Origin: an uncultured Verrucomicrobia subdivision 3 bacterium
GTDB taxonomy: Bacteria > Verrucomicrobiota > Verrucomicrobiia > Limisphaerales > UBA11358
DNA length: 64,000 bases
NCBI GenBank assembly: GCA_903872345.1
Contig: CAIQKM010000197.1
Span: forward strand, 1 to 64,000
Direction of reading: 5' to 3'
In this document: piece by piece, positions 12,401 through 50,721 of the stretch
Layout: the number at the start of each line of letters is the position of its first letter
Numbering within the stretch: position 1 is the stretch's first letter
The notes under the pieces: generated by a model
Databases searched by the model: none
What the model was told of the DNA's origin: nothing
Seen by the model: the letters and a program-made list of their open reading frames with translations, nothing else
Made by a program: the position numbers and the translations under genes

Positions 12401-13400
12401 TCCGCTGGCGGCCCCGGCCGGCGACGGCATCAATGATCCGGTCACCGTGGACAATGGTGGCAGCGGTTACATTGGCGCTCCGGCGGTGACGTTTGCCGGC
12501 GATGGCGTGGGCGCGGCGGGTTACGCGGTCATGTCGGGTGGCAGCGTGGCAGGCATCGTGGTGACTTCACCCGGCTATGGTTATTCCTACGCCACCGTGG
12601 CGCTGACGGGCGGCGGCGGCAGTGGCGCGAGCGCCACGGCCCCGGTTCCCACGCCGAACACCAGCGGCGGCATGACGTTCACCGGCGCGGGCGCCACCAC
12701 GCTGGGCGGCGCGAACACTTATACTGGCAACACCACCCTCAGCGGCGGCACGTTGCTGGTGAACGGTTCCACCTCCACCGGCGCGGTGACGGTCAACGGT
12801 GGCGGCACGCTGGGCGGCACCGGCACGATTGGCGGCGCGGTGACGGTTAACAGCGGCGGCACGCTGGCCCCCGGCGCGGGCATGGGCACGCTCACCATCA
12901 GCGGCAACATCACGTTGAACGCCGGCGCCACGAACGCCTTTGATGTGGATGGCAGCACACCCGCGAACGGCGTGGTGGCGGCGGGCGGAACGGTGACCTA
13001 CGGCGGCGTCTTGAACATCGTGCCCACCGGCGCCTTCACCGCCGGCCAGACCTTCACCCTGTTCAGCGGAGCCGGCGCGGCTGCCGCCAGCAACTTCTCC
13101 GGCATCCAGGGCACGCCCGGCAGCGGGCTGGCCTTTGCCTTCACCAACGGGGTGTTGAGTGTGGTCGCGGCCGGCCCGAGCGGCCCGGCGACGATCACCA
13201 ACAGCATCACCGGCGGCGGTTCGACCCTGAGCCTCTCGTGGCCCGCCGGGCAGGGCTGGCGGTTGCAGATGCAGACCAACAGTCTGGCCATCGGGCTGGG
13301 CACCAATTGGTTCTACATTACCGACGGAAGCCTGAGCAGCACGAACATCACGGTTGATCCCGGCAAGCCCACGGTGTTCTACCGTCTGGCCTATCCGTGA
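6456..13400 (+). CDS. Giant secreted PATR (autotransporter-associated beta-strand) repeat protein
   Basis: A 2314-residue protein with a long N-region and signal-peptide hydrophobic core (LALGLAGLALGCVLSAQA, cleavage expected near SAQAA). The body is Gly/Asn/Thr-rich with dozens of copies of the PATR pattern, for example GVNTYSGGTTISAGTL or GANTYTGNTTLSGGTL. Three W-x-G...W...NW modules (near residues 45, 838 and 1518) appear to begin separate beta-helical blocks. A Gly-rich stretch near residue 2000 (VDNGGSGYIGAPAVTF) differs from the rest. No outer-membrane autotransporter barrel is present; the last 62 residues are instead the shared WP...GW-LQ...FYRL-x-P block. Likely a surface-attached filamentous or adhesive protein; its ligand is unknown. 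The ATG at 6468 is an alternative start. Confidence 0.9.
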   Translation: MKTPMKKTTMFLPLHISSPHGLALGLAGLALGCVLSAQAASDTWSGSVNGTWDTATFNWNGGATAFTSGDAALFTGTPAHSVTAATGLTIGAITLDNTFTGSVLLTGANTVGGATTISAGTLMLTNSATAAGTSAITVNSGGTLALNAGTTADMTYANTVAGAGKVQFLYNATGGHDIYLNNLGGFTGTIELSLAAGSANTAGKARFGGATLSGTSSLIIDSGTQLYMGSGNATFAGIQVQGTGNTETRGAIRLQTGTLTSPISLMGNTTFGTEGATLPSGSPISAGSSGLKTLTLGGASDKTSGNLTINGVISDGSGQVALNQINTGTLSLSGVNTYSGGTTISAGTLSVGNGSALGGGPVTFAGGSVSDSTAVTIANNFSTTSGGTFNASGGAMVLNGNITGGNSLTLTPGNKITLAGTNSFGTSVAFGSLTVNAGAGGVDITGSTTVANGNTAGNAGYVNIAGNVAVTVQSGGSFAFGAATGATPSGFIGQNAAGTSTLLVNGGSLSIGGNLGFGLGNNIATAIGVLTITNNGMATVSAGSATLQDSRNFIAMGRDNATGIINLGPGTLVDGRQFVRDGSSGGTVGAGTATFNFNGGTLKAQANQTNGNGWFETATTGNFQVVTTTIMDGGATIDPNGFNVNINTVLAHGGVSSTDGGLTLTNSAGTGILTLGGNSTYTGPTTVKGGILQVTGTVPTATTVNPGGAIGASSGTFGALVTLAAGNSAVNLQDGSATTIIFANGLTLNNGNVLTFDVGASADQISVGGAFTHNGTATINIAAISGFSTSTYILIAGAGITATNGFVLGSVPAGYSGTLSSDGANLQVTFTQNAPSVAFWKGDVDNQWNTVIGGNNSNWATDSSGATDTMVPPSTPSSVTFAAAGAANFSTVLGVNIVINDLTLSTANNVTIAGATNSLTLVNGLLNDTTALNNTISVSNVVLGGSQTWQNNSANPLTVSSLISGSSALTFSGTGTVVLTSTNNNYNGGTAVSAGTLQLGDGATRNGAVSGTVTDNSVLVFANPTAQTFTGNITGAGVLGKTGAGVLTLPNANTYTGGTVISNGTLQVNNNTALGTTSVGATTGTITDNGVMNLNIGGNWFYYPISGNGAINVAETTNAESRFDGDYSGFTGAITVPASSGSSKVDIEGNAIWNSAATIIVSNGGTLFVESATPTSAWAGQAEQVAATIYVSGNGNSEGFGALRVDDAAILSGNVILQGNTVYGGAYTSPNGISGISGVISDGGLGYGISCANTFSGQAEEFWGANTYSGATTWTNAAYTLVLGNGSALQNSTLNIGPGQLQFDSVVSSNAFLFGGLTGSGNIVLTNISSQAIALTVGNNNGNTAYSGNLSDSGTGASLTKIGNGTLALGGLNSYSGLTTVAGGKLVMNTLQTNATAGITVNDGATLTLDVSGTNQLAPAAYLLGSSTGPVTNEFVGLASTIIAPVNAGSVTLSGQAMVNIVGGNFTVGQTYPLISYGGIGGAGGFVLGTLPRGFAGNIVTNGGNTIALHVTAYTPTVDVWTGLINTNWNIATTTNWLINGSPNTYLEGDFTRFDDTGVSTNVFVTTVVSPNSMVVSNNTKTYTFAGNGIGGIGGLTKQGAGLLVLKQTNTYSGNTVISNGTVQLGAPNAIPGGGGKGDVFLNGTLDLNANSDSLNGLSGNGTVDTVAGGTPTLTVGNNNASSTFSGTLQNSSGSLALTKTGNGTLVLSGTNAYTGTTAVNGGTLDYTGTLGIAPATAAGLLTVNNSGNNAIVNVSAPANIQFNNNNSLIGNNAAGAGALYQSGGTLGGINQLQLGAVTGGSYGYYNLSGGTNTMAELDLGGFNGAAVGVLDMSGGTLNVANWFVPSRGTAAIGILNLTGGSFNYSGPAGQFQANWNNNVGSVTVLNIANASLFAANANVSMMQTGTAGKLGEINLLSGGLMQANSIAPGSATGDSVVNFNGGTLKASAATATFITANNTAVNVYGNGGTIDNNGADITIPAPLAAPAGDGINDPVTVDNGGSGYIGAPAVTFAGDGVGAAGYAVMSGGSVAGIVVTSPGYGYSYATVALTGGGGSGASATAPVPTPNTSGGMTFTGAGATTLGGANTYTGNTTLSGGTLLVNGSTSTGAVTVNGGGTLGGTGTIGGAVTVNSGGTLAPGAGMGTLTISGNITLNAGATNAFDVDGSTPANGVVAAGGTVTYGGVLNIVPTGAFTAGQTFTLFSGAGAAAASNFSGIQGTPGSGLAFAFTNGVLSVVAAGPSGPATITNSITGGGSTLSLSWPAGQGWRLQMQTNSLAIGLGTNWFYITDGSLSSTNITVDPGKPTVFYRLAYP

Positions 13401-13460
13401 GTCTTGGGTCCCGATAAGAACATTTTACCGCGAGACGTGGGTTTGGCGGTAAAGGGGTGA

Positions 13461-13497
13461 CGGGGTGCCGGTTTGGGTTCCGGCAACCCGTTTTTTT
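13461..13497 (+). terminator. Rho-independent terminator behind the giant PATR gene
   Basis: An 11-bp stem with one mismatch (CGGGGTGCCGG paired with CCGGCAACCCG), an 8-base loop and seven T residues, 60 bp after the stop at 13400. Confidence 0.85.
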
Positions 13498-13542
13498 GTG
13501 GATTGATAACAAGCAAAGGCGGGAGAAAGAATTGAAAAGTAT

Positions 13543-13935: not shown

Positions 13936-13972
13936 AAGCAACAGTTGCCGCGCCAAACAGAATTAATTCCGA

Positions 13973-15847: not shown

Positions 15848-18800
15848 ATGAAACCGGGTCATCAAAAAAACTCCCTCGCGGCGGGCATTCTGTTTTTCCT
15901 CGCAGTCATTTCTGCGCAGTCCTACACGCTGCCGCCTTTGCCGGCGATGCCGGCCGTCAGCGCGCCGCTGACGCCCAATACCGTGCCGCTGGGCGACCCG
16001 GCGGTCTTCCCGGAGGTGAACATGGATTTCGCCATCGAGACAAACGGGCCGTTTGCGCCAACGTGGACATCCATCGCGGCGAATGTTCCCGGCAACGGCA
16101 CGCCCGCGTGGCTGCGGCAGGCCAAGTTCGGCATCTGGTTCCACTACGGGCCGGAGGCCAATCTCGCCAGCGGCGACTGGTCAGCGCGGAAGATGTATCA
16201 ACCGGGAACAACCGCCTACAACAACCACCTCGCAAACTTTGGCCATCCAACCACGAACGGTTACAAGGATGTCGTCCGCGCGTGGAATCCCACCAACTAC
16301 AGTCCCGCCGGCATGGCGCAGCTTTTTTACAATGCCGGCGCGCGCTTCGTGCTGGTGCAGGGCGTGCATCACGACAACTTCGACAATTGGAACTCGCGTT
16401 ACAATCCGTGGAACATGATGAACTTCGGGGCGAAGCGCGACACGATGGCGGAATGGACCAATGCGATCCACAATTTGGGCATGCACATGGGCGTGGCGTT
16501 TCACCACGAATATAATTGGTGGTGGGATCAGCCGGCCTTTAACAGCGACAGCACGGGCGCGTTCGCCGGCATTCCCTACGACGCCGTTACCGCGACAAAC
16601 GGCACGGGCACCTGGTGGCAAAACTACGACCCCCGCCGCCTCTATGACATCAATCTGCGCGAATATCAGGGCATTGATTCGCTCGCCTATAACCTGACGC
16701 AAGGCATTTTCACGAATCACCTCGCCTTCGCGCACTGGTATGTGACGCAATGGGCGTTGCGCATGCTGGACGTGGTGGAAAATTACAATCCGGATTTCAT
16801 CTACACGGACGGCAATTCGACGCAGCCGTTCAGCGGCTATCTGAGCGGCAGCGGTTACAAGTGCGACGGGATGCAGCGCGTCATCGCGCATTTCTACAAC
16901 CGCACCCTGGAGCGGCATGGGAAACTGGACACGCTGGCCGTTGTCAAATTCCATGGCGGCGACCACGTCGGCACGACGTTTGAAAACGGATATTCCTCGA
17001 CCATCAAGGAAGACCAGCCGTGGTTTGCGGAATATGTCACGCCCGGCTCGGATTGGTTTTGGCAGCCGGGGATTCCATACGACAACGGCGGCGCCATCGT
17101 TTATCGCCTGCTCGAAGCGGTTTCACGCGATGGCGTGTTGATGACCACCATTCCGCCGCGTCCGGACGGCGCGCTCGACAGCGGCGCAACCAATATGCTC
17201 GTTGGTGTGGGGCAATGGATGGCGATTCACGGCGAAGGCATTTACGGAAGCCGCGCCTGGGTGACGCCAACCGAGGGCAATTTTCGCTTCACCGTCGGCA
17301 CCAACGGATGTCTTTACGCGTTTTATGAAGGCATTCCCTCGGGCGGAACAAAGTTGACCATCGCTTCGCTCGCCACAACATCCAATCTGCTGGTTGCGCC
17401 GGTCACTTCGGTTTCATTGCTCGGAAGCGGGGCGACGCTGACTTGGTCGCAAACGTCCACCGGTCTGGTTGTGACGCTGCCGGCGACGATGCCCGGCCTG
17501 CCGTCGGGCACGGCGATTGGGTTGAAGATCGGTCCGGCCACGGCCGTCGGCAGCGCCACGCCCGCGAATGTCATTGCGTTGCCGGGAACCAATCAAATCA
17601 GCCTGTCATGGTATTGCCCCTCGGCCACGGCCACGTACAACGTGAAACGCTCGCTGACGCACGGCGGGCCTTACACGGCGATTGCGACGAACCTCGCGGC
17701 AATGGCTTTTAACAACACCAATGTTTCGCCCGGCACGCTTTATTATTACGTTGTCACCGCCGTGGACGCCGCCGGCGAATCGGTAAAATCGTCCGAAGCC
17801 TCCGCCTCGCCAGCCGTCGCGCCTTCGACAAATTGGTTGTCGGAAGATGTCGGCGCGGTTGGCGCGACCGGTTCGTTTGGTTTGACCAATGGCGTCTTCA
17901 CCATTCAAGGCTCCGGCGCGGACATCTGGAATTCGGCGGACGGATTCCGTTATGTGTTTCAGTCGCTGACCGGCGACTGTTCCCTGACGGCGCGCGTGTT
18001 GAACATGCAAAACACCACCGGCTGGGCCAAGGCCGGCGTGATGATTCGTGAAACGCTCGACGGCTCGTCGCAATATGTCATCAACTTCATGTCGCCGGCA
18101 AATGGCACGGCGCTGCAACAGCGCAGCGGCACCGGCAACTCGGCTTCCGGCGTAACCGGGAACACCGGCCTGGCCGCGCCGTATTGGGTGCGGCTGGTGC
18201 GGAGTGGAAGCACGTTCACGTCGTATGTTGCGCCGGATGGCATCAACTGGACGCCGACAGGCACGACCACGGTGAGCATGAATGCCAATGTCTATGCCGG
18301 CCTGGCCGTGTGCAGTCACGTTGACGGCACGCTTTGCCAGGCGCAATTCGACAATGTCAGTTTTTCGTCCTCCGCCGTGGTTGTTTCCACACCGCTGCCG
18401 GCGTTGATTCACCGGTATAGTTTCAACGAAACCGGCGGAACCACCGCGCATGATTCCATTGGCGGGGCCAACGGCACTTTGAAGGGGAGCGCGGCTTTCG
18501 ACGGCGGCGGCCGCGTGGCATTGAATGGCACCAGCGGGACTTATGTCAGCCTGCCGGGCAATTTGCTCGCCGGCCTGTCCAACGTGACGGTTGAAGCCTG
18601 GGTCACCAATGCCGTTTCGCCGGACAACGTGGCGTTGTTTTCGTTCGACGACGGTTTGCAGGACGGGGCAGGGGGCGGCTACCTGCGCTATGTGCTGCAT
18701 GACAGCAGTAACGGCCGCAATTTCTTGGAACTCGCCAGCGGCGGCGGCAGTCCAAAAGTCACGGCCACTCCCGGACTCGGCGGCCAATATGTACACGTTG

Positions 18801-19258
18801 TCTGCGTTTATAATCCGTCCGCCGGTGTGGCGCTTCTCTATACCAACGGCGCGCTCGAAGCCAGCCAGGCCGTTTCCACTGCGCTGGCCAATGTCAGTTT
18901 AAACGCCGCCGCGCTGGGAAGATCGCCGTGGAACAGTGATCCGTGGCTGAACGGGGCGATTGACGAGTTTCGTATCTATGCCGGACAACTGCTGCCGGCG
19001 GACATTGCGGCCGCCCAAACGGTCGGACCGAATGTCCTGCTCACGTCCAATGTTTCGCTGGCCGTTTCCCAAGGCAACGGATCGTTGACGCTAAACTGGC
19101 CGGTCGCCGGCTCCGGTTTTACACTGGTATCCAGTCCCGCCCTGGGCGCGGGCGCGGTTTGGACTCCTGTCAACGCCATTCCCTCCGTCATTGGTGGGAA
19201 CAACCAAGTGCCTGTCAGCATGACCAACACAACCCTGTTCTTCCGGTTGCAGAGATAG
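15848..19258 (+). CDS. Secreted multidomain alpha-L-fucosidase, GH29-FN3-LamG
   Basis: An 1136-residue protein with signal peptide (SLAAGILFFLAVISAQS). The GH29 domain (about residues 80-500) is closely similar to the upstream gene: WLRQAKFGIWFHYGP, GVHHDNFDNWN, and Asp321 in NPDFIYTDG as expected nucleophile. Then follow an FN3 domain (about 575-655), a DUF1349-like beta-sandwich (about 660-840; GWAKAGVMIRETLDGSSQYV), a LamG domain (about 855-1055) and a weak version of the shared C-terminal block ending FFRLQR. The accessory domains probably bind carbohydrate. The ATG abuts the stop of the previous gene with no spacer, indicating translational coupling. Confidence 0.92.
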   Translation: MKPGHQKNSLAAGILFFLAVISAQSYTLPPLPAMPAVSAPLTPNTVPLGDPAVFPEVNMDFAIETNGPFAPTWTSIAANVPGNGTPAWLRQAKFGIWFHYGPEANLASGDWSARKMYQPGTTAYNNHLANFGHPTTNGYKDVVRAWNPTNYSPAGMAQLFYNAGARFVLVQGVHHDNFDNWNSRYNPWNMMNFGAKRDTMAEWTNAIHNLGMHMGVAFHHEYNWWWDQPAFNSDSTGAFAGIPYDAVTATNGTGTWWQNYDPRRLYDINLREYQGIDSLAYNLTQGIFTNHLAFAHWYVTQWALRMLDVVENYNPDFIYTDGNSTQPFSGYLSGSGYKCDGMQRVIAHFYNRTLERHGKLDTLAVVKFHGGDHVGTTFENGYSSTIKEDQPWFAEYVTPGSDWFWQPGIPYDNGGAIVYRLLEAVSRDGVLMTTIPPRPDGALDSGATNMLVGVGQWMAIHGEGIYGSRAWVTPTEGNFRFTVGTNGCLYAFYEGIPSGGTKLTIASLATTSNLLVAPVTSVSLLGSGATLTWSQTSTGLVVTLPATMPGLPSGTAIGLKIGPATAVGSATPANVIALPGTNQISLSWYCPSATATYNVKRSLTHGGPYTAIATNLAAMAFNNTNVSPGTLYYYVVTAVDAAGESVKSSEASASPAVAPSTNWLSEDVGAVGATGSFGLTNGVFTIQGSGADIWNSADGFRYVFQSLTGDCSLTARVLNMQNTTGWAKAGVMIRETLDGSSQYVINFMSPANGTALQQRSGTGNSASGVTGNTGLAAPYWVRLVRSGSTFTSYVAPDGINWTPTGTTTVSMNANVYAGLAVCSHVDGTLCQAQFDNVSFSSSAVVVSTPLPALIHRYSFNETGGTTAHDSIGGANGTLKGSAAFDGGGRVALNGTSGTYVSLPGNLLAGLSNVTVEAWVTNAVSPDNVALFSFDDGLQDGAGGGYLRYVLHDSSNGRNFLELASGGGSPKVTATPGLGGQYVHVVCVYNPSAGVALLYTNGALEASQAVSTALANVSLNAAALGRSPWNSDPWLNGAIDEFRIYAGQLLPADIAAAQTVGPNVLLTSNVSLAVSQGNGSLTLNWPVAGSGFTLVSSPALGAGAVWTPVNAIPSVIGGNNQVPVSMTNTTLFFRLQR

Positions 19259-19340
19259 CTTGTGGAATTATGTTTTATTACAAGATCACATCGCGCCGCC
19301 ACCAATGTCAACTTAGCAACCACACCCATTTATCAAGCCG

Positions 19341-22300
19341 ATGAACAAAATAATTATCAGCCTGCTCGCCGCAGTTATCCTGGCTTTGGCCCCGACCGCC
19401 GGCGCGCAGACGTTGAAAACCTATTTCAACTTTACCACCTACGGCACCCAGAGTGGCGGGGCCACGCTGGCGGATTTGACGGGGCATACCACAGCCACCC
19501 TGAATACGGAAGCCCACACGACCCTGACGGCCGGTGGCCTGACCATCAGCTCCGGCGGAAGTTCTTTGACCACCGGTGTGACGATTGGCAGCGTGGCGAT
19601 GAGCGGTTATACCGGAGCCTTCTCGATTCAGCAATGGGTCACCCTGGCGGCGGTCAATAACAACCAGGTTTTGTTCGGGGCCAATAACGGTGCCATTAAT
19701 AATTACGTCGGCGATGGCGGCACCATCAGCACCCTGATTGGCGCGATACGAACTCAGGCGATCAGCGCTTACGTTGGCGGCAGCACGCCCAGTTATCTTC
19801 AGGGTGGCCACGGTGTTGCCGATGCCACCGGCACGCCTTCCACGGGAACCCTCTATGACGTGGTGCTGACCTACGACGGCGCCTCTTTCCGCGAATATGT
19901 GAACGGAACTTTGAAAGGCACCTTAAACATGCCCACCTTCGGGAGCCTGGCGCAGGCATGCTCGACCGATTCTTACACGGGCAAGAGCGGTTTTGCCATC
20001 GGGGGCGGGATGAACGATCCTTTCACCGACACCACGCTGCCGGAAACCACGTCCGACTTCCTGCTTTACACCGGGGCGTTGAGCCAGGCCCAAATCACTT
20101 CGCTTCACAATCTCGGTGCGGGGGCCAGTTTGAACGCCGTCACCAATGTTTTTGCGCCGTCCGCCAGTAAAGTTTGGAGCGGCGGCGGCAGTGACAACAC
20201 CTGGACCAATGTTGCCAACTGGGTGTCGGGCAGCGCGCCCAATGGCGGCGACTATGTGGCGTTCGCGGGGGCGGCGCAAACCAATGTGAACCTGGTCGCC
20301 AGCACTTATGTGGGATTGCTGACCTTCAACAGCGGGGCCGGCAGTTTCAGCATCACCAACAGCGGTTCCACCCTGACGCTGGCGGGCGGCCTGACGAACA
20401 ATTCGGCGAATCCTCAAACCGTGGCGGTGCCGGTCGGGCTGGGCACAAACCAAATCATCAATGCGGCGGCGGGAAATGTGGCGCTTACCGGCGGGGTTTC
20501 CGGCAGCGGCGGATTGACGGTTTTGGGCAATGGCCGGACAGTGACGCTTTCGGGAGTGAACACCTACGCGGGCAACCTGGCCATTCTGGGAAGCAGCATT
20601 TTGGCGCTGGGGAATACCGCTGCCCAGACCAACTCGGGAGCGGTCACCGGCACCGGAACATTGGTGAAGACCGGGGCGGGCACCCTGGCGCTGGCAGGTA
20701 CAAATAATTTCACGGGAACGACGACGGTGAGCAACGGCATGTTGCTGGTGACGCAGGTGTCCGGTCAATCGCTGGGCACGAACATCACCGTGGCGGACGG
20801 GGCGGCGTTCGGGATCACGGCCTCGGCGGATGCGAGCTATTTGTCGCCGGCAAAAATGACGGTCGGAAACGGGAGCGGGGCGACGTTGCAATTTGGCATC
20901 GCGGGAACGAACAATGCGCCGCTCAAGCCAACCACCTTGACGTTGAGCGGGACGACGACGATCAACATCACCCAGTGTCCGTATGTGCTGACGAATTTTC
21001 CGCTGGTCACCGGTTACACCGCCGGCACGCTGGCATTGGGCACGCAGCCGACGGGGTGGACGGGGCAGTTGACGGTCAGCGGCGGGACGGTTTATTACAC
21101 GGTGACCAGCCTGGATCCCAATTACAAGCCGTTCGTGCATCCGGGCTGCTTGAGCACGCTGGCGGATTTGCAACGCATGAAGGCCAAGGTGCAGGCCGGG
21201 TTGCAGCCGTGGGCGGCGGGTTATTCTGCCTTGGCCAATAACGGCTACTCGGCAAATAACTATGTGGCTTATCCGCATCCGTATCCCTGTCGGGGTGGCT
21301 CCTGCACCAACCAAGACTACCTGACCATGTGTCGGGATGCGAACGCCGCCTACCAGGCCGCCTTGCGCTACTGGGTCACGGGCGACTCGTCCTATGCCGA
21401 CTGCGCCATCCGAAACATGGACGGATATGCGAACACGGTAATATCGTTGGAAGGCGATTCCAACGTTTTGCTGATGCAGGGTGCCCAAGGCTTTCAATGG
21501 GCCTGCGCGGCGGAGTTGTTGCGGAATTATCAACCGTGGATTGACTCCGGGGGCTTTGGCCGGTTTCAGAACTTTCTACTCACGAAGTTTTATGCCAATT
21601 ACGACCCGCCGTGGTATGGCAATGGTTTGAGCGCATTTTTGCAGAGTCACAACGGCACTTGCTGGTCGCACTACTGGCTGAACTGGGATTTGTTTGCGAT
21701 AGACGCCGTTGCCGCCATCGGCGTGGTCTGCGACCGGCGCGACATTTACAACCAGGCGATCAACTATTACCAGAGCGGCCCGGGCAACGGCAATGCGCAC
21801 AATGCCTTGTATTTCATGCATCCGGGCTATCTGGGGCAGCATCAGGAAATCGGGCGCGATCCGGGGCACGCCTCGGCGGATCCGATTTTGCTGGGACAAT
21901 TTTGCGAGGTGGCGTGGAACCAGGGCGACGACATGTATGGCTACAACAACAACACCTTGCTGGCCATCAGCGAATACACCTTCAAAATGATGTCAACGTT
22001 GAATGTTCCCTGGGTCAACTACGCCGGCTGCGACGCGTGGGACGTGCAACCGGCCTATGGCAGCCAGTATCGTCCGGGCGTGGATTTGATTTGGAATCAT
22101 TATGTGAACCGGAAGGGGTTGGCGGCGCCTTACACGATGCCGTGGGCCATCGCGGGGCGGCCGGAAAATGGCGGCGGGGCCTACGGTCAGACCAGCGGCG
22201 GCTTTGATCAAATCGGTTTCACCACGCTCACCCACGCGCTGGATTCGATCACGAATTCGCCGGCGCCGAGCGGAGTGGTGGCGGATGCGCGCAATGCCAA

Positions 22301-33949: not shown

Positions 33950-34191
33950 GTTTGCTTTCACCAATAAATTATTCACCGCCAAAACGTGCGCTTTGGCACA
34001 TCTCGGACCGGTTTGGGCATAGTATCTGGAACGCTGCGAAAGGCGATAAGAAAACGTACTACTCCCCCGTTTGTGGTAGGGGTTGGCGCGGTTTGAACCC
34101 CCGGTTCCGGCTTGCATGAATCCGCCGCTGACAGGAATGGATTCTAGGATTGACCAAACTCTTCAAGGATGGGAACTTGGGGGCCACCAAC

Positions 34192-36993: not shown

Positions 36994-37362
36994 ATGAAGA
37001 CCATCGCCATTCTCGGCGCTTCGGCGGACCGGAATAAATTCGGCAACAAAGCGGTGCGGGCGTTTGCGCAGTCGGGTTACACGGTTTATCCCGTGAACCC
37101 GAAGGAAACGCTGATTGAAGGGTTGCCGGTCTGCCGCAGTCTGGCCGAGGTGCCGGGGCGGCCGAATCTCATTAGCGTTTACCTGCCGCCGCCGGTGTTG
37201 CTGAAGGTGTTGCCGGAGATTGCGGCCAAAGGGTGTGATGAGCTGTGGCTGAATCCGGGCACCGAATCCGCCGAAGTGCTGGCGGCGGCGGAAAGGCTCG
37301 GGCTTAATGTCATCCAGGCGTGCAGCATTGTGGGGATTGGGATTGAGCCGGAGGAGATGTGA
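36994..37362 (+). CDS. CoA-binding (Rossmann) domain protein
   Basis: A 122-residue single-domain protein starting MKTIAILGASADRNKFGN, the dinucleotide/CoA-binding loop of CoA_binding_2 proteins (YccU-like), followed by GYTVYPVNPKE and ELWLNPGTESAEVLAAAE. Such proteins bind CoA; their cellular role is poorly defined. It starts 12 bp after the GH35 stop, and its stop overlaps the GTG start of the following kinase gene by 4 bp, so it belongs to the same transcript. It is the only cytosolic, non-regulatory member of this run. Confidence 0.93.
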   Translation: MKTIAILGASADRNKFGNKAVRAFAQSGYTVYPVNPKETLIEGLPVCRSLAEVPGRPNLISVYLPPPVLLKVLPEIAAKGCDELWLNPGTESAEVLAAAERLGLNVIQACSIVGIGIEPEEM

Positions 37363-40745: not shown

Positions 40746-40763
40746 TACACCGTTCGGTGGATA
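40745..40763 (+). promoter_or_regulatory. 19-bp motif copy 1, upstream of response regulator
   Basis: ATACACCGTTCGGTGGATA, containing the inverted repeat CACCG-TT-CGGTG, starts at the last base of the kinase stop codon and lies 70 bp before the regulator start. It matches a second copy at 41534 in 16 of 19 positions. Candidate operator; function inferred. Confidence 0.4.
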
Positions 40764-40833
40764 GCCGGAAAATGCATTTAAAATTAAACTGGGCGCCAAC
40801 ATGGTTTGCGCGCCCAATCATAATCCCGAAGTC

Positions 40834-41490
40834 ATGACGCGGATTGCCATCGTGGAAGACAACGAGACGATGCGGCAGACTTTGGTGAAGCTCATCGAAG
40901 GCGCGCCCGGCTGCAAATGCGTCTGCGTCTGCGCGTCGGCGGAGGAGGCGCTGGAACAGTTGCCGGCGGCAAAACCCGATGTGGCGCTGATGGACATCCA
41001 CATGCCCGGCCAGACCGGCATTGCCTGCACGGCGCAGTTGACGGCGACGCTGCCGAAATTGCAGGTCATCATGCTGACGGTTTACAAGGATATCCAACTG
41101 ATTTTCCAGGCGCTGAAGGCCGGCGCGTGCGGCTATCTGCTCAAGCGTTCGAGCCGGGAAGAAATTCTCGAAGCCATCGCCGAGGTGCGCGGCGGCGGGG
41201 CGCCGATGACCAGTGAAATTGCCCGGCTGGTGGTGCGCTCCTTCAAAGCCCCGACCAGCGCGCCGACGAGCGAGACCGAGAATCTTTCGGCGCGCGAATA
41301 TGAAATTCTCGGCCTGATCGCCAAGGGGCTTTCCAACAAGGAAATTGGCAGCCAACTCAACATCAGCGCGGCCACGGTCAGCCGCCATCTCGTTCACATC
41401 TACGCCAAACTGCACGTTCGTTGCCGCACCGAGGCGGCGGCGGTTTTTCTGGCCGAAAATCGCCCGCCGGCCGCCCTGCCGGTCTCCTGA
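40834..41490 (+). CDS. NarL/FixJ-type response regulator
   Basis: A 218-residue regulator from the ATG at 40834 (MTRIAIVEDNETMRQTL); an upstream in-frame ATG at 40801 would add 11 uncharacteristic residues. The receiver domain has the phospho-acceptor Asp54 in VALMDIHMPG, the conserved Thr in VIMLTVY and Lys in YLLKRSS. The C-terminal LuxR-type helix-turn-helix reads LSAREYEILGLIAKGLSNKE and IGSQLNISAATVSRHLVHIY. It pairs with the HisKA_3 kinase immediately upstream. Likely targets are the flanking 19-bp motifs and the PATR gene at 41676, but no binding data can be read from sequence. Confidence 0.95.
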   Translation: MTRIAIVEDNETMRQTLVKLIEGAPGCKCVCVCASAEEALEQLPAAKPDVALMDIHMPGQTGIACTAQLTATLPKLQVIMLTVYKDIQLIFQALKAGACGYLLKRSSREEILEAIAEVRGGGAPMTSEIARLVVRSFKAPTSAPTSETENLSAREYEILGLIAKGLSNKEIGSQLNISAATVSRHLVHIYAKLHVRCRTEAAAVFLAENRPPAALPVS

Positions 41491-41533
41491 TGGCGGCTGG
41501 TTTCCCAAGTTCCGCCCGGTGATTTAATCCGGC

Positions 41534-41675: not shown

Positions 41676-44600
41676 ATGAAAACAAAATTCACCTTGAGCC
41701 ATTACTCCGCGCTCATTTTGACCGCGCTGTGCCTGTTTTCCGCCGTCAGCGCACGATCGGCCGCCCAATTTTTCAGCGGCACCAACGCCGTGCTCAACTG
41801 GGATAACGGCACGACCCCCAACTGGGGCAACGTCACCGGCGGGCCTTACAATACCACCTGGGCCAACGGCAACGACGCCGTTTTCCAAGGCACCGCCGCC
41901 ACGGTGACCAATTTGGGCGTTAGCGCCAACAGCCTTATGTTCAGCACGGCCAGTTATATCATTACCAGTAACACGATTACCCTGACGGGGGCGGCGCCAA
42001 AGATCACCAACACCGTTACCGCCACGCTGGCGGCCTCCCTGGCCGGTACGGGCGGGATTACCAAATATGGCACGGGCACGCTGACGCTTTCGGGCTCCAA
42101 CACGTTTACCGGCCCCCTGACGAATAACTCCGGCGGCGCGGTGACCGCCATTGTGGTGGCCAACAGCAATGCGTTGAGCGCCACTACGGTGGTCGTGGGC
42201 TCGGGGGGCGGCGGCGGCAATGCCGTGAACATCGGCAGCGGCGTCGTTACCTCGCCGCAAAGCACCATTTATTTGCAGGCGGCCAGCGGGGCGCGGGCCG
42301 CCTTGGGGAACAATGGCGCGGTCACGGCGACCTGGGGCGGGGATGTGGTTTTTACGGTCGCGGATAATTCCATCCCGCAGATTTACGCCAACGGTGGCGC
42401 CCTGAATATTCTCGGCAATGTTCGCGGCACCAGTCCGGTGGCGGGGGTGCTTTTGCGCGGTGCCGGCACGGGCAAGATTTACGGCAACGTCTGGGCGACG
42501 AATTCGTTCGTCTTCGTGGCGGACGGCGGCAACTGGACGATTTTCTCCAACAGCAACCTTTGGAGTGTCTTCCAAATCAACGGCGGCACGCTCAAGCTGG
42601 GCACCAACGACGCGCTGTGCACGACCGGCGCATTGGCGCTGGGGCAGGGCAATGGCAATGCGTTTGCCTTTGACATGAACGGGTTTAGCCAAACCGTTCC
42701 GGTTGTAACCAACAATATCGGCACCGTGGTCAATCTCTTCACCAACAGCAGCGCCAATCCCTCCGTTTTCACCGTCAACGCGACGGCGGCCAACAGCCGG
42801 ATCGCCCCCAGCGGCGCCGGGAACATCATTGTGAGCGGGCCGATCTCGCTGGTTAAAAATGGTTCGTTCCAATTGGCGCTCGGGGCGGCGAACACCTACA
42901 CCGGTACCAATACCATCAACGGCGGCACCTTGCTCATTACCAATGTGGGCACGCTGGGCAATACGGCGAATCCGCTCTTCGTGAACGCCGGCACGCTGAA
43001 TCTTGGTGCTTCCAGCCAGACTGTTGGTGATGTTTCGGTCGTCAGTGGTACGATCACCAACGGCACGTTGACCGGCAATTCCTTCACGGTTCAAAGCGGG
43101 ACGATCTATGGGGTGCTCGCCGGGGCGGGGGTTTTGAACAAGACCACCTCGGGCACGCTGACTTTGGGCGGCGCGAATACCTACAGCGGGGCGACCACCG
43201 TGACCGGCGGCAAGGTCATTGGCGTTACGGGCGGTTCCTGCGGCAGCGCATTCAGTTTCGCCCCGGGGGCGGGTGCGGCAACGACCAACAGCGTGCTTAT
43301 TAAGACGGCGGGCGGTCAGTGGACCTGCGGCGGGCTCACGGAAACGGCCGGCAGCGGCGCTGTTTATGCCGAGTTTAACTACGGCACCATTGCCAGCCCC
43401 AGCACCACCACGGCACCGGTGTTGGTGAACGGCACTTGCAGTGTCAACGGCACATTGAATGTGATTGTTACCGGCGGCATCGGCTGGGCTTCCGGCCAGG
43501 TTTATCCGCTGCTGCAAATTATTGGCAGCGCGCCCGCGAGCATCACTTTGAACTTGGTGGCGACGCCGAACGGCGTCATCGGCGGTTCTTTGAGCTATGA
43601 TCCGGTGGCGCAGATCATCAGCTACACCGCCGGCAGCGCGCCGCGCTCCCTGACGTGGAACACGGGTAACGGCCTGTGGGATATCAACACCACGGCCGAC
43701 TGGCTGGACGCGAATTTGAATGTCACGAAATTCCAGCAACTTGATTTGCCGACTTTTGGCGACGCGCCCGGCGCTGGGAATTTCATCGTCACGAACAATT
43801 CGGCGGTGAATCCGTCGAGCCTGACGGTTAGCAACAGTGTGGCCAATTACACATTCACCGGCAGTGGCGCCATTACCGGCAGCGGGGCCTTGACCAAATC
43901 CGGTATCGCCAGCCTGACGCTCGCCACCGCCAATACTTACTCCGGTGGCACGGTGGTGAGCAACGGCACGCTGGTTCTGGCCAATGGCGGCGCCCTCGGT
44001 TCGGGCGCGTTGGATATTGAAGGTGGCAGTCTCGACAGCGGCGCGGCCAATCTGGTCAACGCCAACAATAATCCGGTGACCTTGGACAATGACCTGGTCT
44101 TCCTTGGCTCGCAAAATCTGAATATGGGTGGCGGGGTGATTACCCTTACGGCCAACCGTCAGATCATTGTCAGCAACAATACGTTCACCGTTGGCGGTTC
44201 CCTGTCCGGCTCCGGTTTGACGCTCACCAAATCCGGCCCCGGCACCTTGCGTCAGGGCGCGGCCAACGCACTCGGTGGCGTGGCGCTGACCGTCAATCAA
44301 GGGGTGGTTGATTTGAACGGCACGGCCTTGGGCGTCACCGGTTTTGCCGGCGCGACCAACGGCGCCGTTTTGAACAACGGCGGCACCGGGCAGGTCGTGT
44401 TAACCATTGGCAACAATAACGGTGGCGGCACGTTTGCCGGCACGGTGGCCGACAATTCAACGGGTTCCGGCACTTTGGCGGTGGCCAAGGTGGGCACCGG
44501 ATCGGTGGTCTGGACCGGCAGCAACAGTTACTCCGGCAACACGACGATCACCAGCGGCAATGGTTGCCTGTTTGCCGCGGGCAATCCTTATGCTTTCGGC

Positions 44601-46001
44601 GCCACCAACGGTGAAGTGACGCAGATGGAGGACAATGACTCTGTTCGTTTGCAGGGCAACATTACGGTGGCGGGCAAGACGATTAACATCCGCGGCACCG
44701 GCGGCGGTCCCAGCGGCGGCAACGGGAACGGCGCGTTGCAGGGGGCGACGGGGCAGACGAATGTTTGGGCCGGCATTGTTCGATTGGGTGCCGCCGGCAG
44801 CGCCAATCCGGCGCGGTTGGGGGTCTATCCCGGCTCGATCGGTGAGCTGGTTGTGGCCGGCCCGCTGGTGGATGGGTTGACCGCTTCCGGTGCGGCGCTG
44901 GGATTGGTGGTGAATTGTGATACCTACGGCTCGACCGTTTTGATCAGCACGCCGGCGGGATTGAATACCTACTCCGGTCAGACGCAATTGGGGCGCGGTA
45001 TCTTGCTGTTGGGCGCGACCAACACGCTCCCGGCCACCAACGTGCTTAATGTCGGCACCGCCGGCAGTTTGACCGCCACCTTCGACCTCAACGGTTTTGA
45101 CCAAATTGTCGGCGGTCTGACCCATAGCGGCGCCAATGTGGCAACGGTGCAAAATTCCGGGGCCACGACCAATACGCTGACCGTCAATCAAAACACGACG
45201 TTGAGCTACTCCGGCGCCATCGCCGGCGGCACGGCGATAAATCTGGTGAAAACCGGCAGCGGCCAATTGACGCTTCTGGGTGACACCAGCGGCTGGAATG
45301 GATTGACCACCGTCAGCAACGGCACGCTGCTGGCCAATAACCCCTCCGGCTCGACGGGCTCGGGGAGCGTATCCGTGTATGGCGGCACGCTGGGTGGCAA
45401 TGGTTATATTGCCGGCCCGGTATCGGTCTATGCCGGCGGCACGCTGGCGCCCGGTTCCAATTCGCTGGAAACCCTGATCATTGCCAGCGATCTGACCTTG
45501 AGTCCCGGTTCCACCAGTACCTTTGAAGTCAATGGCGACACCTCGGCCAACAGTCAGGTTATCGTTTACGGCAACGCGACCTACGCCGGCGGTTTGAATA
45601 TTGTGACCAATGGCACGTTTACGCCGGGCCAGACGTTTACCTTGTTCTCCGGCGGCAATACGGCCGGCACGCCGAGCAACTTCAGCAGCATCACGGGTTC
45701 ACCGGGAACGGGCCTGGCCTGGAGCTTCACCAACGGGGTCCTCAGCGTGGTGTCAGGTGTCAGCTATGCCGGTAATCCCACGAACATTACCGCCACCGTA
45801 TCCGGCAATCAATTGACCCTGTCCTGGCCGGCGACGCATCTCGGCTGGATTTTGCAGGCGCAAACCAACGCGTTGACGGTGGGCTTGACCACGCCGACGA
45901 ACACCTGGTTTGACGTGGCCGGCAGTGATGCCAGCAATACCAACGTCATCAACATCAATCCGGCCAATCCGACGGTGTTTTACCGTCTGCGGCTGCCTTG
46001 A
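41676..46001 (+). CDS. Secreted PATR beta-strand repeat protein
   Basis: A 1441-residue protein with signal peptide (SALILTALCLFSAVSARSAA). The mature part is two PATR blocks, each beginning with a W...W/NW module (near residues 35 and 660; SLTWNTGNGLWDINTTADW). Repeats such as GANTYSGATTVTGGKV and TANTYSGGTVVSNGTL are separated by variable Gly/Asn-rich sequence. A stretch near residue 1350 (GQTFTLFSGGNTAGTPSNFS) closely parallels the end of the 2314-residue protein at 6456. No outer-membrane barrel is present, and the C-terminus is the shared block ending FYRLRLP. It probably forms a right-handed beta-helix at the cell surface. It is the first gene after the response regulator. Confidence 0.9.
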   Translation: MKTKFTLSHYSALILTALCLFSAVSARSAAQFFSGTNAVLNWDNGTTPNWGNVTGGPYNTTWANGNDAVFQGTAATVTNLGVSANSLMFSTASYIITSNTITLTGAAPKITNTVTATLAASLAGTGGITKYGTGTLTLSGSNTFTGPLTNNSGGAVTAIVVANSNALSATTVVVGSGGGGGNAVNIGSGVVTSPQSTIYLQAASGARAALGNNGAVTATWGGDVVFTVADNSIPQIYANGGALNILGNVRGTSPVAGVLLRGAGTGKIYGNVWATNSFVFVADGGNWTIFSNSNLWSVFQINGGTLKLGTNDALCTTGALALGQGNGNAFAFDMNGFSQTVPVVTNNIGTVVNLFTNSSANPSVFTVNATAANSRIAPSGAGNIIVSGPISLVKNGSFQLALGAANTYTGTNTINGGTLLITNVGTLGNTANPLFVNAGTLNLGASSQTVGDVSVVSGTITNGTLTGNSFTVQSGTIYGVLAGAGVLNKTTSGTLTLGGANTYSGATTVTGGKVIGVTGGSCGSAFSFAPGAGAATTNSVLIKTAGGQWTCGGLTETAGSGAVYAEFNYGTIASPSTTTAPVLVNGTCSVNGTLNVIVTGGIGWASGQVYPLLQIIGSAPASITLNLVATPNGVIGGSLSYDPVAQIISYTAGSAPRSLTWNTGNGLWDINTTADWLDANLNVTKFQQLDLPTFGDAPGAGNFIVTNNSAVNPSSLTVSNSVANYTFTGSGAITGSGALTKSGIASLTLATANTYSGGTVVSNGTLVLANGGALGSGALDIEGGSLDSGAANLVNANNNPVTLDNDLVFLGSQNLNMGGGVITLTANRQIIVSNNTFTVGGSLSGSGLTLTKSGPGTLRQGAANALGGVALTVNQGVVDLNGTALGVTGFAGATNGAVLNNGGTGQVVLTIGNNNGGGTFAGTVADNSTGSGTLAVAKVGTGSVVWTGSNSYSGNTTITSGNGCLFAAGNPYAFGATNGEVTQMEDNDSVRLQGNITVAGKTINIRGTGGGPSGGNGNGALQGATGQTNVWAGIVRLGAAGSANPARLGVYPGSIGELVVAGPLVDGLTASGAALGLVVNCDTYGSTVLISTPAGLNTYSGQTQLGRGILLLGATNTLPATNVLNVGTAGSLTATFDLNGFDQIVGGLTHSGANVATVQNSGATTNTLTVNQNTTLSYSGAIAGGTAINLVKTGSGQLTLLGDTSGWNGLTTVSNGTLLANNPSGSTGSGSVSVYGGTLGGNGYIAGPVSVYAGGTLAPGSNSLETLIIASDLTLSPGSTSTFEVNGDTSANSQVIVYGNATYAGGLNIVTNGTFTPGQTFTLFSGGNTAGTPSNFSSITGSPGTGLAWSFTNGVLSVVSGVSYAGNPTNITATVSGNQLTLSWPATHLGWILQAQTNALTVGLTTPTNTWFDVAGSDASNTNVININPANPTVFYRLRLP

Positions 46002-46016
46002 GCCGATGAAAGATTT

Positions 46017-46036
46017 GTCACCTTGGGTTGGGTGAC
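46017..46036 (+). terminator. Small hairpin after PATR gene
   Basis: GTCACC and GGTGAC form a perfect 6-bp stem around TTGGGTTG, 16 bp after the stop. No T-tract follows, so it may only protect the mRNA end. Confidence 0.35.
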
Positions 46037-46045
46037 GATGGGGTG

Positions 46046-46076
46046 GAAGGGCCGGCCTGGGTTGGGCCGGCCCTTC
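46046..46076 (+). terminator. Strong hairpin between PATR and pseudopilin genes
   Basis: GAAGGGCCGGCC and GGCCGGCCCTTC form a perfect 12-bp stem with a 7-base loop, followed only by TTTC. The weak T-tail allows read-through into the pseudopilin gene 33 bp later. Confidence 0.6.
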
Positions 46077-46108
46077 TTTCAAGTCAGATCATTGCCACCG
46101 GTTTAACC

Positions 46109-46924
<816 letters not shown>

Positions 46925-47007
46925 TTGCGTAATAATTGCATGGCCACACCGAAATATCTTCCAACCGGCAATATTGGCGGTTGCGGTCAGCTCTTGATTT
47001 GCCACGT

Positions 47008-50000
47008 ATGAAAAACGAAGGCCGCATGAAATTTATTTTTAAAATCATATTGGCGGTTCTGTGCTGGCCATGGCTGATGGCGTCTGGAAAAGCGGCGGTC
47101 ATCACTTGGGGCAACGCCATAACCATCACCAACGACGCGGACATTTCGACCAACGGCAATTTTGAATACGGCGGCTATTTTGCGCCCACGACGGCGGCGG
47201 TAACCCTTAACGGGGTCACCTTCACCGGTTCGGGGGGCAGTCACAATTTCGGCGTCAGTGTCACCACGGCTTTTGCCAATGGTGGCACGGCCTACAGCGG
47301 CATGGGCGCGGGCACGGGGCTTTCGGCCAATTACCAGACGCTGCTCGGCGGTTGCGTCTATGGTTCGACCAATCTGAATTCCATCACGCTGAACAATCTG
47401 AAAATCGGCGGTCAATACACCATCCAGTTGTGGATCAATGACAGTCGCAGTAACGGGGCAAACAGTTCGAATACGGTCACTGGCGGCAACAGCGTGAATT
47501 TGGATTACAACAACAAAAATGCGGTTGGCGGGGTCGGGCAATATGCCTTGGGGACTTTTATCGCGGATTACCCGAATCTCACCTTCTATTTGCAGAGCCA
47601 TCAATCCGGCCAGTTCAATGCGCTGCAATTGCGGAGCCTCCCGGCTACCGCTGCCACGTTGGCGCCGATTACCAATGTCGCGGTCAGCGTGAACACCACG
47701 CAGTCCTTGCGCACGGTGGATCGGCGTCTGTTTGCGTTGAACACCGCCATTTATGACGCCAGCCTGTCGGGTTCGGCATCCATTCCGCTCTTGTTTGAAA
47801 TGGGCAATCAGGCGCTGCGCTGGCCCGGCGGCGGTTATGGCGATTCCTGGTTGCTGTCCACCGAGGCGCAGCGGCCGAGTTCGCAGCCGCGCTTGACGAA
47901 TTTTCTGTATATCATCAAGAGCACCGGGGCGGCGGCCTCGATGATTGCCAATTACGGCAGTGGCGCACCGCAGGACGCCGCGAGTTTGGTGGCCGCGTGC
48001 AATCTGACCAACAAGGTGTACTGCCAGAACTGGGAGATTGGCAATGAAACCTTTGGCACGTGGGAGCGGGATCAAATCGTGCCGCCGTTCTACACCAACG
48101 ACATTTTGAATCTCCCGTCCCTGGCGAACAAACTCTACACGCCCACGAACAATATTTCGGTTTATTTCCGCAGCCAGTTGTCCGCCGCCACGCTGACGAC
48201 GCTGACCAATTACCAGGTTTCCGGCTCCAGTTATGCGGCGGCGCTGGCGGCGGCGCTGGTTGGCGACATTAACAACGTCGTTAATAATATTTCGCCTTTT
48301 TCCATTTATAAACAGGATACCAACCGTTTTGCCGGCGTCACGTTTCGCGCCCTGACGTGGACGAATCTGGCGTTGCCGATTCCCAACGCCGGGCAGGATT
48401 TGAACAACCGGATGACCCTGGAGGACGCCTATCCGGAACTGGCGCAACTCACGCCGGCCGTCAATCTCGCCACCAACTGGCCGAATGTTTATCTGCCGCA
48501 CGACCCGTGGACCTATGCGCAGCGGTTCGCACAGTATTACACGCAAATGAAGGCGGTGGATCCCACGATCAAGATCGGCGCGCTGGCGGTGCCCAACGAA
48601 ACGTCCTACGGCAACGGCTACACCCAGCATTTTGCAGTGAACCCGCGCACGGGGGTGACGAATTACGGCTGGACGCCGGTCATGCTCGCCACCTTAAAAA
48701 CCTTGGGGATCATGCCGGACAGCTTGATTTATCACAACTATGCCGTCTCCGGTGATGCCGCGTTGCTGCAATGGTCCACCATTTTGACCAATGACTCCGC
48801 CGCCTTGCGGCAGATGCTGGCGGACTACTACAGTCCGGCGGCGAGCAATATTGATCTGTGCATCACCGAAATGGGGCCGGACATCAGCGACCAGAGTTCC
48901 ACCAGCCTCGTCGGCGGATTGTTCTATGCGGACAACTCCGGGCAGGCCGTGCAGTCGGGTTTTAATGAACGTCTTTGGTGGAGTTTTCGCAACGGCGCCG
49001 GGGCGGTCGCCGCCAATACCAACATCTATGGGTGGCGTAACATGGCGGATTACGGCATGGTCGCCGGTTCCGGTTCGCCGGCATCAAACCGGTATCCGGA
49101 TTTCTATTGCTTTAAGCTGACGCAATACTTCGCGCGCGGCGTGGAAACGGTATTGCCCGTGACCAACAGTTCGCTCCTGCTGGCCGCCTACGCGGTGAAG
49201 CAGACGAACGGATCATTGCGATTGCTGGTGGTCAACAAGAGCGCCACGGTCAACGTCGTCGGCAACTTTAGCCTGCCCGGATATGTGGCGGACGGGAACG
49301 CCACCGCTTACAGTTACGGCATTCCGCAGGACGAAATGGTGCGCACCAACGGCTCCGGCCTGACGGATATTGCCGTGACGAATTTCACCCTCATGAGTCC
49401 CTCGAAGTTTAGCTACACGTTCGCGCCTTATTCGGCCACGGTGATCGTTCTCTCGCCGCCGTCCCCGCCGGTCACGAAGCAATATCAAACGCGGATTACC
49501 TTCACGAACTATCTGCGCGGTGAAATCCTGACCAACTTTCCCGTGCTGGTGGTTTTGCGCACCAATCTGCCGGGATTTGATTACCATACCTTCGCTGCCG
49601 CCAGCGGCGGCGACCTGCGCTTCAAAAGTGGCGATGGCGCGACCGAATTAAACTACGAAATTGAACAGTGGAATCCGGGCGGGAATTCCTACGTATGGGT
49701 GCAGGTGCCGCGTTTCACGAACAACTGTTCGGTGCTGGCGCAGTGGGGTGGTTTTAATGGCAGCACCGCCCCCGCTTACACGACCAACGGGGCGACGTGG
49801 AGCAACGGATTCCTTGGCGTCTGGCATCTGGACGAGGTGTTCGGCCAGCATCGTGATTCCACGGCCAACCGGGGATCGACGCGCTCGGTGCAGGCGGTCG
49901 GCCAGGGTTTTCCCGTCGGTGCGGTGGGCGGCGGTGATGATTTTAATGACCTGACGGTATATAGCAGCTATTACATCCAATTGTACGGCGGGGTGAACGA

Positions 50001-50721
50001 TTACGTCAGCCTGCCGAATCTTGGCACCAATGCGCAGGTGACGGTCGAATGCTGGGCGAACCTGAACGCCGTGCCACCGGACACGCTGCGCGGTTTGGTG
50101 TCCGCCGATCCGTGGGCGACCGGCATTACGGATTTCCGGTGCAACAACAGTCTGCAAGTGCAGGCGGCAAATTACAATGGCACCACGCTGACGTCCCCGG
50201 CCAATTCCATTGCCGTGAGCAACTGGTTTTATTCGGGCTATGTGATGGCGGGTGCTGGCAGTGGAAATTTCCGCCTGTTTCTAAACGGCACGAACGTCGC
50301 CACCGGCACCGGCGCAACGCCCTGCGATAATTCCAGCCTGACCGTCGCCCGCGAATACGGCGGCCGGTACCTCAACGCCCGCATGGACGAGGTGCGCATT
50401 TCCAACGTCGCCCGCTCAACCAACTGGCTGTGGGCGACTTATCTGAACATCGCGTCCAACACGGTTTTCAGTTCGGCGGATACGGTTGCCAGTATTGGCG
50501 TCCTGGGCACTAATATTACACTCGTCACCTTGGGCAATTCATTGATGCTATCCTGGCCGGCGGATCACATCGGTTGGCGCTTGCAGGTGCAGACCAATTC
50601 GCTTGCGCAGGGCCTCGGTTCCAATTGGACGGATGTGCCCGGCGCCACGACCACCAACCAACTGACGATGCCAATCGGTTTGACCAACGGGGCGGTGTTT
50701 TATCGGATGATCTACCCGTGA
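47008..50721 (+). CDS. Secreted clan-A glycosidase (arabinofuranosidase-like) with DUF2341/LamG tail
   Basis: About 1237 residues from the ATG at 47008 (47026 is also possible), with signal IFKIILAVLCWPWLMASGKAA. Residues 22-215 form a beta-sandwich without a familiar name (NGVTFTGSGGSHNFG, GQYTIQLWINDSR). A TIM-barrel glycosidase follows (about 215-820) with the clan-A acid/base pattern NWEIGNETFG near 342 and a likely nucleophile in ITEMGPD near 618, as in GH39/GH51-type arabinofuranosidases. Then come DUF2341 (826-920), LamG (937-1140; SNGFLGVWHLDE) and the shared C-terminal block ending FYRMIYP. Substrate is uncertain; alpha-L-arabinofuranoside or beta-xyloside is the best guess. Confidence 0.8.
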   Translation: MKNEGRMKFIFKIILAVLCWPWLMASGKAAVITWGNAITITNDADISTNGNFEYGGYFAPTTAAVTLNGVTFTGSGGSHNFGVSVTTAFANGGTAYSGMGAGTGLSANYQTLLGGCVYGSTNLNSITLNNLKIGGQYTIQLWINDSRSNGANSSNTVTGGNSVNLDYNNKNAVGGVGQYALGTFIADYPNLTFYLQSHQSGQFNALQLRSLPATAATLAPITNVAVSVNTTQSLRTVDRRLFALNTAIYDASLSGSASIPLLFEMGNQALRWPGGGYGDSWLLSTEAQRPSSQPRLTNFLYIIKSTGAAASMIANYGSGAPQDAASLVAACNLTNKVYCQNWEIGNETFGTWERDQIVPPFYTNDILNLPSLANKLYTPTNNISVYFRSQLSAATLTTLTNYQVSGSSYAAALAAALVGDINNVVNNISPFSIYKQDTNRFAGVTFRALTWTNLALPIPNAGQDLNNRMTLEDAYPELAQLTPAVNLATNWPNVYLPHDPWTYAQRFAQYYTQMKAVDPTIKIGALAVPNETSYGNGYTQHFAVNPRTGVTNYGWTPVMLATLKTLGIMPDSLIYHNYAVSGDAALLQWSTILTNDSAALRQMLADYYSPAASNIDLCITEMGPDISDQSSTSLVGGLFYADNSGQAVQSGFNERLWWSFRNGAGAVAANTNIYGWRNMADYGMVAGSGSPASNRYPDFYCFKLTQYFARGVETVLPVTNSSLLLAAYAVKQTNGSLRLLVVNKSATVNVVGNFSLPGYVADGNATAYSYGIPQDEMVRTNGSGLTDIAVTNFTLMSPSKFSYTFAPYSATVIVLSPPSPPVTKQYQTRITFTNYLRGEILTNFPVLVVLRTNLPGFDYHTFAAASGGDLRFKSGDGATELNYEIEQWNPGGNSYVWVQVPRFTNNCSVLAQWGGFNGSTAPAYTTNGATWSNGFLGVWHLDEVFGQHRDSTANRGSTRSVQAVGQGFPVGAVGGGDDFNDLTVYSSYYIQLYGGVNDYVSLPNLGTNAQVTVECWANLNAVPPDTLRGLVSADPWATGITDFRCNNSLQVQAANYNGTTLTSPANSIAVSNWFYSGYVMAGAGSGNFRLFLNGTNVATGTGATPCDNSSLTVAREYGGRYLNARMDEVRISNVARSTNWLWATYLNIASNTVFSSADTVASIGVLGTNITLVTLGNSLMLSWPADHIGWRLQVQTNSLAQGLGSNWTDVPGATTTNQLTMPIGLTNGAVFYRMIYP

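Follow-up and report, generated by a model that had tools for sequence, protein, structure and literature searches.

The question raised by this locus is why five large proteins with otherwise different domain contents should end alike. The window, the whole stretch of 64,000 nucleotides analysed here, comes from an uncultured Verrucomicrobia subdivision 3 bacterium (assembly GCA_903872345.1, contig CAIQKM010000197.1), and five of its apparently exported proteins share a C-terminal block. This block is real, occurs across the order Limisphaerales and, within the genus of the source organism, is linked to a secretion gene family, that of the pseudopilins. The linkage to pseudopilin genes is new; a sorting role for the block is likely but unproven. 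The interpretation of an earlier note, which took the block for a sorting or anchoring tag, is partly supported. With a terminal domain common to about a hundred proteins and tied in the genome to pseudopilins, the choice of cargo by the type II secretion system (T2SS) would become open to direct test on the many cargo-pseudopilin pairs found in nature. The exported proteins of these mostly uncultured polysaccharide degraders could also be listed by it, and a domain missing from Pfam and NCBIfam would gain a name.

The five carriers are all encoded on the plus strand and, by their Pfam matches, comprise a protein of 2314 residues with PATR repeats (6456-13400), an alpha-L-fucosidase of 1136 residues with LamG (15848-19258), a protein of 2729 residues with PATR, LamG, and fibronectin type III (Fn3) domains (19341-27530), a second PATR-repeat protein of 1441 residues (41676-46001), and a DUF2341 protein (46936-50721) whose true start is probably further in. 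The alginate-lyase match in the third carrier lies exactly at the Pfam cut-off. Judged by eye, all five begin with a segment resembling a signal peptide. Their upstream parts had been called unrelated, which is too strong because these parts are partly related: PATR repeats are common to the first, third, and fourth carriers, the second and third are related in sequence where Pfam gives Fn3 and LamG, and the DUF2341 protein is the only one without a BLASTP match to the other four (E<=1e-3).

In the alignment the block spans about 72-77 residues at the end of each carrier (roughly 72-76 as measured against the earlier estimate of about 60), and shows a fixed order of motifs: [SN]WP, G[WF]xL, mostly TN, one tryptophan, and F[FY]R[LM] at the extreme C terminus. 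Leaving out each end in turn, a profile of the other four recovers the fifth in all five cases, always at the C terminus, with independent E values (i-E) from 3.8e-21 to 2.6e-7. These are 1.3e-14 for the block at 13176-13397, 2.6e-7 for that at 19034-19255, 5.1e-11 at 27306-27527, 3.5e-17 at 45768-45998, and 3.8e-21 at 50497-50718, all on the plus strand; the block ending the fucosidase, already described as a weaker version, is indeed the weakest of the five. The E values of the five-end profile (9.0e-32, 2.5e-22, 3.6e-29, 1.1e-32, and 8.8e-35, in the same order) are circular, having been obtained with a profile built from the same ends, and the leave-one-out runs are the non-circular test. 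Across all five runs, the best score of any other frame among the 221 window-derived sequences was no better than 0.3, and none of 23 other window frames of at least 200 residues that were inspected ends in the motif, in agreement with the view that the smaller hydrolases of the window lack it. It is virtually certain that the block constitutes a genuine family of terminal domains.

The block is new to Pfam, NCBIfam, and the open-licence literature searched: no Pfam or NCBIfam model describes it, and no title on it appeared among the open-licence papers searched. When 70 blocks were compared with Pfam, no family matched more than two of them, the best being SWM_repeat (E 0.0013, given without the family cut-off), and the best Pfam stretches of the five carriers all lie outside the block.

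AlphaFold2, fold searches, and profile alignment together indicate a fibronectin-III-like sandwich that would end at strand F and lack strand G. The AlphaFold2 model of the block copy from the DUF2341 protein (pLDDT 87.1, pTM 0.71) has its last predicted strand at residues 74-78 of 80, the profile alignment stops at Fn3 column 67 of 89, and the fold match goes no further than residue 75 of chain 4lpu_A, which has 93; an Fn3-type beta-sandwich is thus predicted, and strand G is absent from the prediction. The resemblance is faint at the level of sequence, where the Pfam fn3 model (PF00041) matched one of the 70 blocks at E 0.042 and none better, had no match over the block in the five full window proteins, and a PDB sequence search returned weak matches only (best E 0.01, to a glucanase/chitosanase; FN3con at 0.29). 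The possibility that the block is simply the last repeat of each protein holds as far as the predicted fold is Fn3-like, but it does not fit a domain that breaks off after strand F, lies at the protein end, and is found there too in proteins for which Pfam reports no Fn3. The conservation of three tryptophans (W26 in 96%, W33 in 74%, and W50 in 100% of blocks) could reflect either core or binding residues.

The source genome, an assembly of 6.54 Mb in 204 contigs, holds many more copies. A strict DNA pattern for the tail plus stop codon gave 42 matches and its reversed form none; the five-sequence profile gave 92 matches at E<=10, and a 70-sequence profile gave 105 at E<=1e-3. Divergent endings that look alike (FYRx, YFRV, FYIL) are missed by the profile, as at loci L220, L260, L264, L272, L276, and others, so the true number of tagged proteins may exceed 105. 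In the 77 stretches examined, the block stands 0-6 residues ahead of the stop in 72 distinct proteins, two of these being partial matches (the second frame of L058, and L104), against four weak internal matches that resemble ordinary Fn3 domains. This bears out the description of a portable block at the end of otherwise different exported proteins. Block-bearing frames have a median length of 1391.5 residues.

A signal peptide was expected ahead of every hit. A simple heuristic finds one in 57 of the 72 block proteins, and of the 15 misses several run off a contig or, by eye, still resemble a signal peptide. In regions chosen around prepilin genes, where crude gene calling gave 551 genes in 1.05 Mb and missed small ones, 29 of 42 tagged genes have a predicted signal peptide versus 107 of 384 untagged genes other than prepilins.

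Database relatives of the block number 288 at E<=0.001. Among the 120 of them that were listed, the best match always ends 0-4 residues from the C terminus and the final residue is proline in 107; the same 120 yield another 28 matches of lower significance (i-E 0.0034 to 0.7), Fn3 domains in many cases. Some of the relatives listed bear names such as glycoside hydrolase 76, alpha-L-rhamnosidase, and endo-glucosaminidase, and PATR, LamG, Ig, and Fn3 are among their other domains. The 26 named relatives are metagenome-assembled genomes assigned to Verrucomicrobia subdivision 3, Limisphaerales, Pedosphaera, Verrucomicrobia, Verrucomicrobiia, or simply 'bacterium'.

The proposed search of other Verrucomicrobiota genomes also succeeded. 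All 18 other genomes of the genus from the relatives search match (11-83 matches each), and so do 10 of the 11 genomes taken from the order's other families (3-39 each). Across the order 109 of 116 sampled genomes, in 78 of 81 genera, were positive with up to 48 candidates scored per genome, and across the phylum 61 of 288 genomes matched, mostly weakly, with up to 19 candidates scored. The expectation that hits would always be C-terminal stood in the source genome, apart from its four weak internal matches, and for the best matches in the relatives listed, but held only in part in three other families of the order, where 28 of 34 distinct hits at 30 loci are terminal and six are internal or in tandem, a point that counts against a pure end tag. 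Strict terminality is consequently a trait of the genus rather than of the whole domain family. One locus from another family of the order, L299, carries two internal block-like copies followed by a terminal one in the same frame. On contig C199 of genome G308, several consecutive genes (19158-23198 and 206-412) end in the block, two of them with identical scores and frame lengths, and this pair looks as if it had been recently duplicated.

The clue to a possible partner lies between two of the tagged genes of the window. A pseudopilin gene with a prepilin N-terminal methylation motif is found there on the same strand, at 46109-46924; its ATG at 46109 was chosen by eye in a frame that opens at 46028. 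Its product matches PF07963 with 29.9 bits (cut-off 21.2) and, with the protein taken from 46103, TIGR02532 with 25.1 bits (cut-off 16.3). The corresponding DNA pattern, a single one with at most one mismatch that misses divergent pilins, occurs at 83 places in the source genome; for genome G308, 100 of its 109 places entered the listing. The analysis of gene neighbourhoods used 71 tagged genes from the 92 five-profile matches, after removal of three partial internal matches (E 1.3e-4, 0.0026, and 0.0052) and the 18 from E 0.021 down. A prepilin pattern lies within 1000 bp downstream of 12 of the 71, always 100-450 bp away and in the same orientation; about 0.9 would be expected under a uniform spread over both strands. 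Within 1000 bp upstream there are ten cases, eight of them on the same strand. As a control, none of 50 PEP-CTERM ends of the same genome has a prepilin pattern in the interval from 2500 bp before to 1000 bp after it (Fisher p 0.001).

The association extends to other genomes and to a comparison among large proteins. A prepilin lies downstream at 5 of the 12 loci from the same genus and at 8 of the 26 public ones, or 12 of 37 distinct loci since L153 and L186 are the same; the first prepilin is 107-543 bp away on the same strand, and within the flanks covered none occurs upstream or on the opposite strand. Among exported proteins of at least 700 residues in the regions around prepilins, a pseudopilin gene comes next after 12 of 22 tagged versus 6 of 32 untagged ones (strict profile, p 0.007). 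A wider rule for the ending gives 16 of 29 versus 2 of 25, and the strict figures are preferred because the wider rule was devised after the neighbours had been seen. A partner whose presence tracks the number of hits had also been sought, and within the genus a candidate is found: over 19 genomes, tag and prepilin counts correlate with a Spearman coefficient of 0.94 (0.91 as a partial correlation on genome size), or 0.93 and 0.90 without the source genome. The count of exosortases does not follow that of tags (-0.04 within the genus); exosortase, present in 27 of 30 genomes, was rejected as a partner.

Several observations weigh against pseudopilins as general partners of the block. Fifty-nine of the 71 tagged genes have no prepilin pattern just downstream. 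In the 11 genomes from other families the tracking is lost, with a Spearman coefficient of 0.27 (as a partial correlation -0.31, and -0.61 on logs, p 0.047). For the full set of 30 genomes the correlation of 0.61 falls to 0.18 once genome size is removed, so that the effect on counts lies within the genus. Three other-family genomes have a prepilin within 1000 bp downstream of only 4 of 75 hits, all four on the same strand, and none was found near the 29 distant phylum loci. A special clade of pseudopilins beside tagged genes was looked for and rejected, the label needing 17 changes on the tree versus 17.3 when shuffled, a result that fits repeated pairing and names no single partner family. 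Clusters for polysaccharides may also just be where both tagged and pseudopilin genes collect, but the figures for PEP-CTERM ends and for untagged large proteins speak against this as a full explanation. A C-terminal RH..DG pattern was rejected as a discriminator of these pseudopilins, being present in 6 of the 20 encoded after a tagged gene, 1 of the 7 encoded ahead of one, and 13 of the 40 without such a neighbour.

That the block takes part in export or sorting is, on balance, probable. Two features expected for T2SS substrates were found in the source genome, namely a Sec/Tat-type signal peptide on most carriers, by the heuristic count given above, and T2SS genes. Four secretins exceed their cut-off, GspD does so in two clusters and GspG in a third, and the GspE, GspF, and GspK models match below their NCBIfam cut-offs while Pfam T2SSE and T2SSF are above theirs. 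There are also precedents. Loop 3 of an Fn3 domain acts, besides other loops, as a T2SS signal in PelI/Pel3, according to PMC7949064, whose abstract describes the mechanisms of T2SS substrate recruitment as still elusive. For one cultured member of the Verrucomicrobiota, PMC13274419 describes a PulG-like pseudopilin with 67 homologues and a pseudopilin among the 17 genes over-expressed on alginate, its authors suggesting that the T2SS of this bacterium may export alginate-degrading enzymes. The pseudopilin linkage, the T2SS genes of the genome, PelI/Pel3, and this cultured bacterium together favour a portable recruitment domain at the C terminus, one that would serve T2SS-type export and would likely be read by pseudopilins. 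This reading is put forward tentatively, and a role that runs specifically through the T2SS and its pseudopilins is plausible without being the expected outcome. The Fn3 domain of PelI/Pel3, from Dickeya and Pectobacterium, is N-terminal, complete, and one of several signals in one enzyme, whereas the block is C-terminal, seemingly devoid of strand G, and common to about a hundred proteins.

In the proposed mechanism, the carrier would pass the inner membrane by means of its signal peptide and fold in the periplasm, where the terminal Fn3-like domain, open at its strand-G edge, would be bound by a component of the T2SS-type machine. The binder would most likely be one of the many pseudopilins of the genome, some of them encoded beside their cargo, and the cargo would then leave through the secretin. 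Four things are inferred here: a need for the block in export, the T2SS as the pathway taken, physical contact between a pseudopilin and the block, and, least certain, strand addition as the mode of that contact. As several carrier genes adjoin pilin-like secretion genes, the domain may be a secretion address label; because its edge is open, strand addition is suggested, a mode of contact used by chaperone-usher pilins. Strand complementation is nevertheless rather doubtful. The same doubt attaches to the fullest version of the proposal, an unlikely one, in which an Fn3 domain without strand G would serve as a genome-wide T2SS address label read by pseudopilins that complete the missing strand. 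Throughout the order, it would mark as many as a hundred or so cargo proteins in each genome, with some pseudopilins dedicated to neighbouring cargo.

The main rival is an anchoring module that holds exported proteins on the surface through an envelope glycan, an S-layer, or an outer-membrane protein, the pseudopilin link then reflecting a shared role in polysaccharide handling. Extracellular enzymes often bear Fn3-like domains as accessory modules, the carriers themselves are large hydrolases or proteins with PATR, Ig, or LamG domains, the conserved tryptophans W26, W33, and W50 could bind a ligand, and tandem copies such as those of L299 would suit a binder. Binding modules are normally placed anywhere in a protein, so the strict terminality within the genus would be unusual, and anchoring alone leaves the same-strand linkage to pseudopilins, set against none of the PEP-CTERM genes, unexplained; this alternative is somewhat unlikely. 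A partner-free folding cap, in which a beta-sandwich at the terminus would seal and shield the ends of long beta-rich proteins, is improbable. Many carriers are PATR proteins and beta-helices are often capped, but the block also ends proteins with enzyme domains (the window fucosidase and, by name, glycoside hydrolase 76, rhamnosidase, and endo-glucosaminidase), and a cap needs neither the strict F[FY]R[LM] at the stop nor a pseudopilin link. Very unlikely is a tag for a type IX-like or another dedicated, unnamed outer-membrane translocon: signal peptides combined with a terminal beta-sandwich on many large proteins follow the logic of the type IX secretion system (T9SS) C-terminal domain of Bacteroidota, but of the T9SS tag models only that for type B, TIGR04131, gives a match at E<=0.1, to one of the 70 blocks (E 0.048). 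A search for the translocon domain SprA_N (PF14349) was silent in all 30 genomes and equally in the 14 control genomes, so that its silence is no evidence of absence.

Other known systems resemble the block in part, and none of their sorting models describes it, in keeping with the remark that its author was not aware of a named export system for it. PEP-CTERM/exosortase likewise places a C-terminal sorting signal on many proteins of this genome, but the block has no PEP motif, membrane helix, or basic tail, and TIGR02595 matches neither the five window proteins nor the 70 blocks at E<=0.1, which upholds the earlier distinction between the two. TIGR02595 does work in the source genome, where it marks 50 places (frames of 39-353 residues, median 234.5) alongside two exosortases; PEP-CTERM is thus a second C-terminal system of this genome, on small proteins. 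As to autotransporters (type Va secretion), the Pfam matches of the five window proteins at E<=0.1 include no beta-barrel model, and only PATR repeats and autotransporter passenger parts match models of this type. The Verru_Chthon cassette proteins C and D (TIGR02599, TIGR02596) are also prepilin-like and belong to gene cassettes of Verrucomicrobiota, which are accompanied by large PATR-type proteins. The window pseudopilin matches these models over its N-terminal 25-28 residues only, far under their cut-offs (20.8 of 70 bits for D, 14.1 of 256.5 for C).

Two further features of the window deserve mention. A 2-oxoglutarate dehydrogenase E1-type protein (PF16078, PF00676, PF02779, PF16870) is encoded on the minus strand at 31079-34117, inside the cluster of exported proteins. 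At 37359-41490, frames resembling by eye a histidine kinase and a LuxR-type regulator precede the tagged and prepilin genes; regulator-like ends are also present on genes upstream of three other prepilins (L215, L222, and L235), and a regulatory link between such genes and the tagged and prepilin genes is possible.

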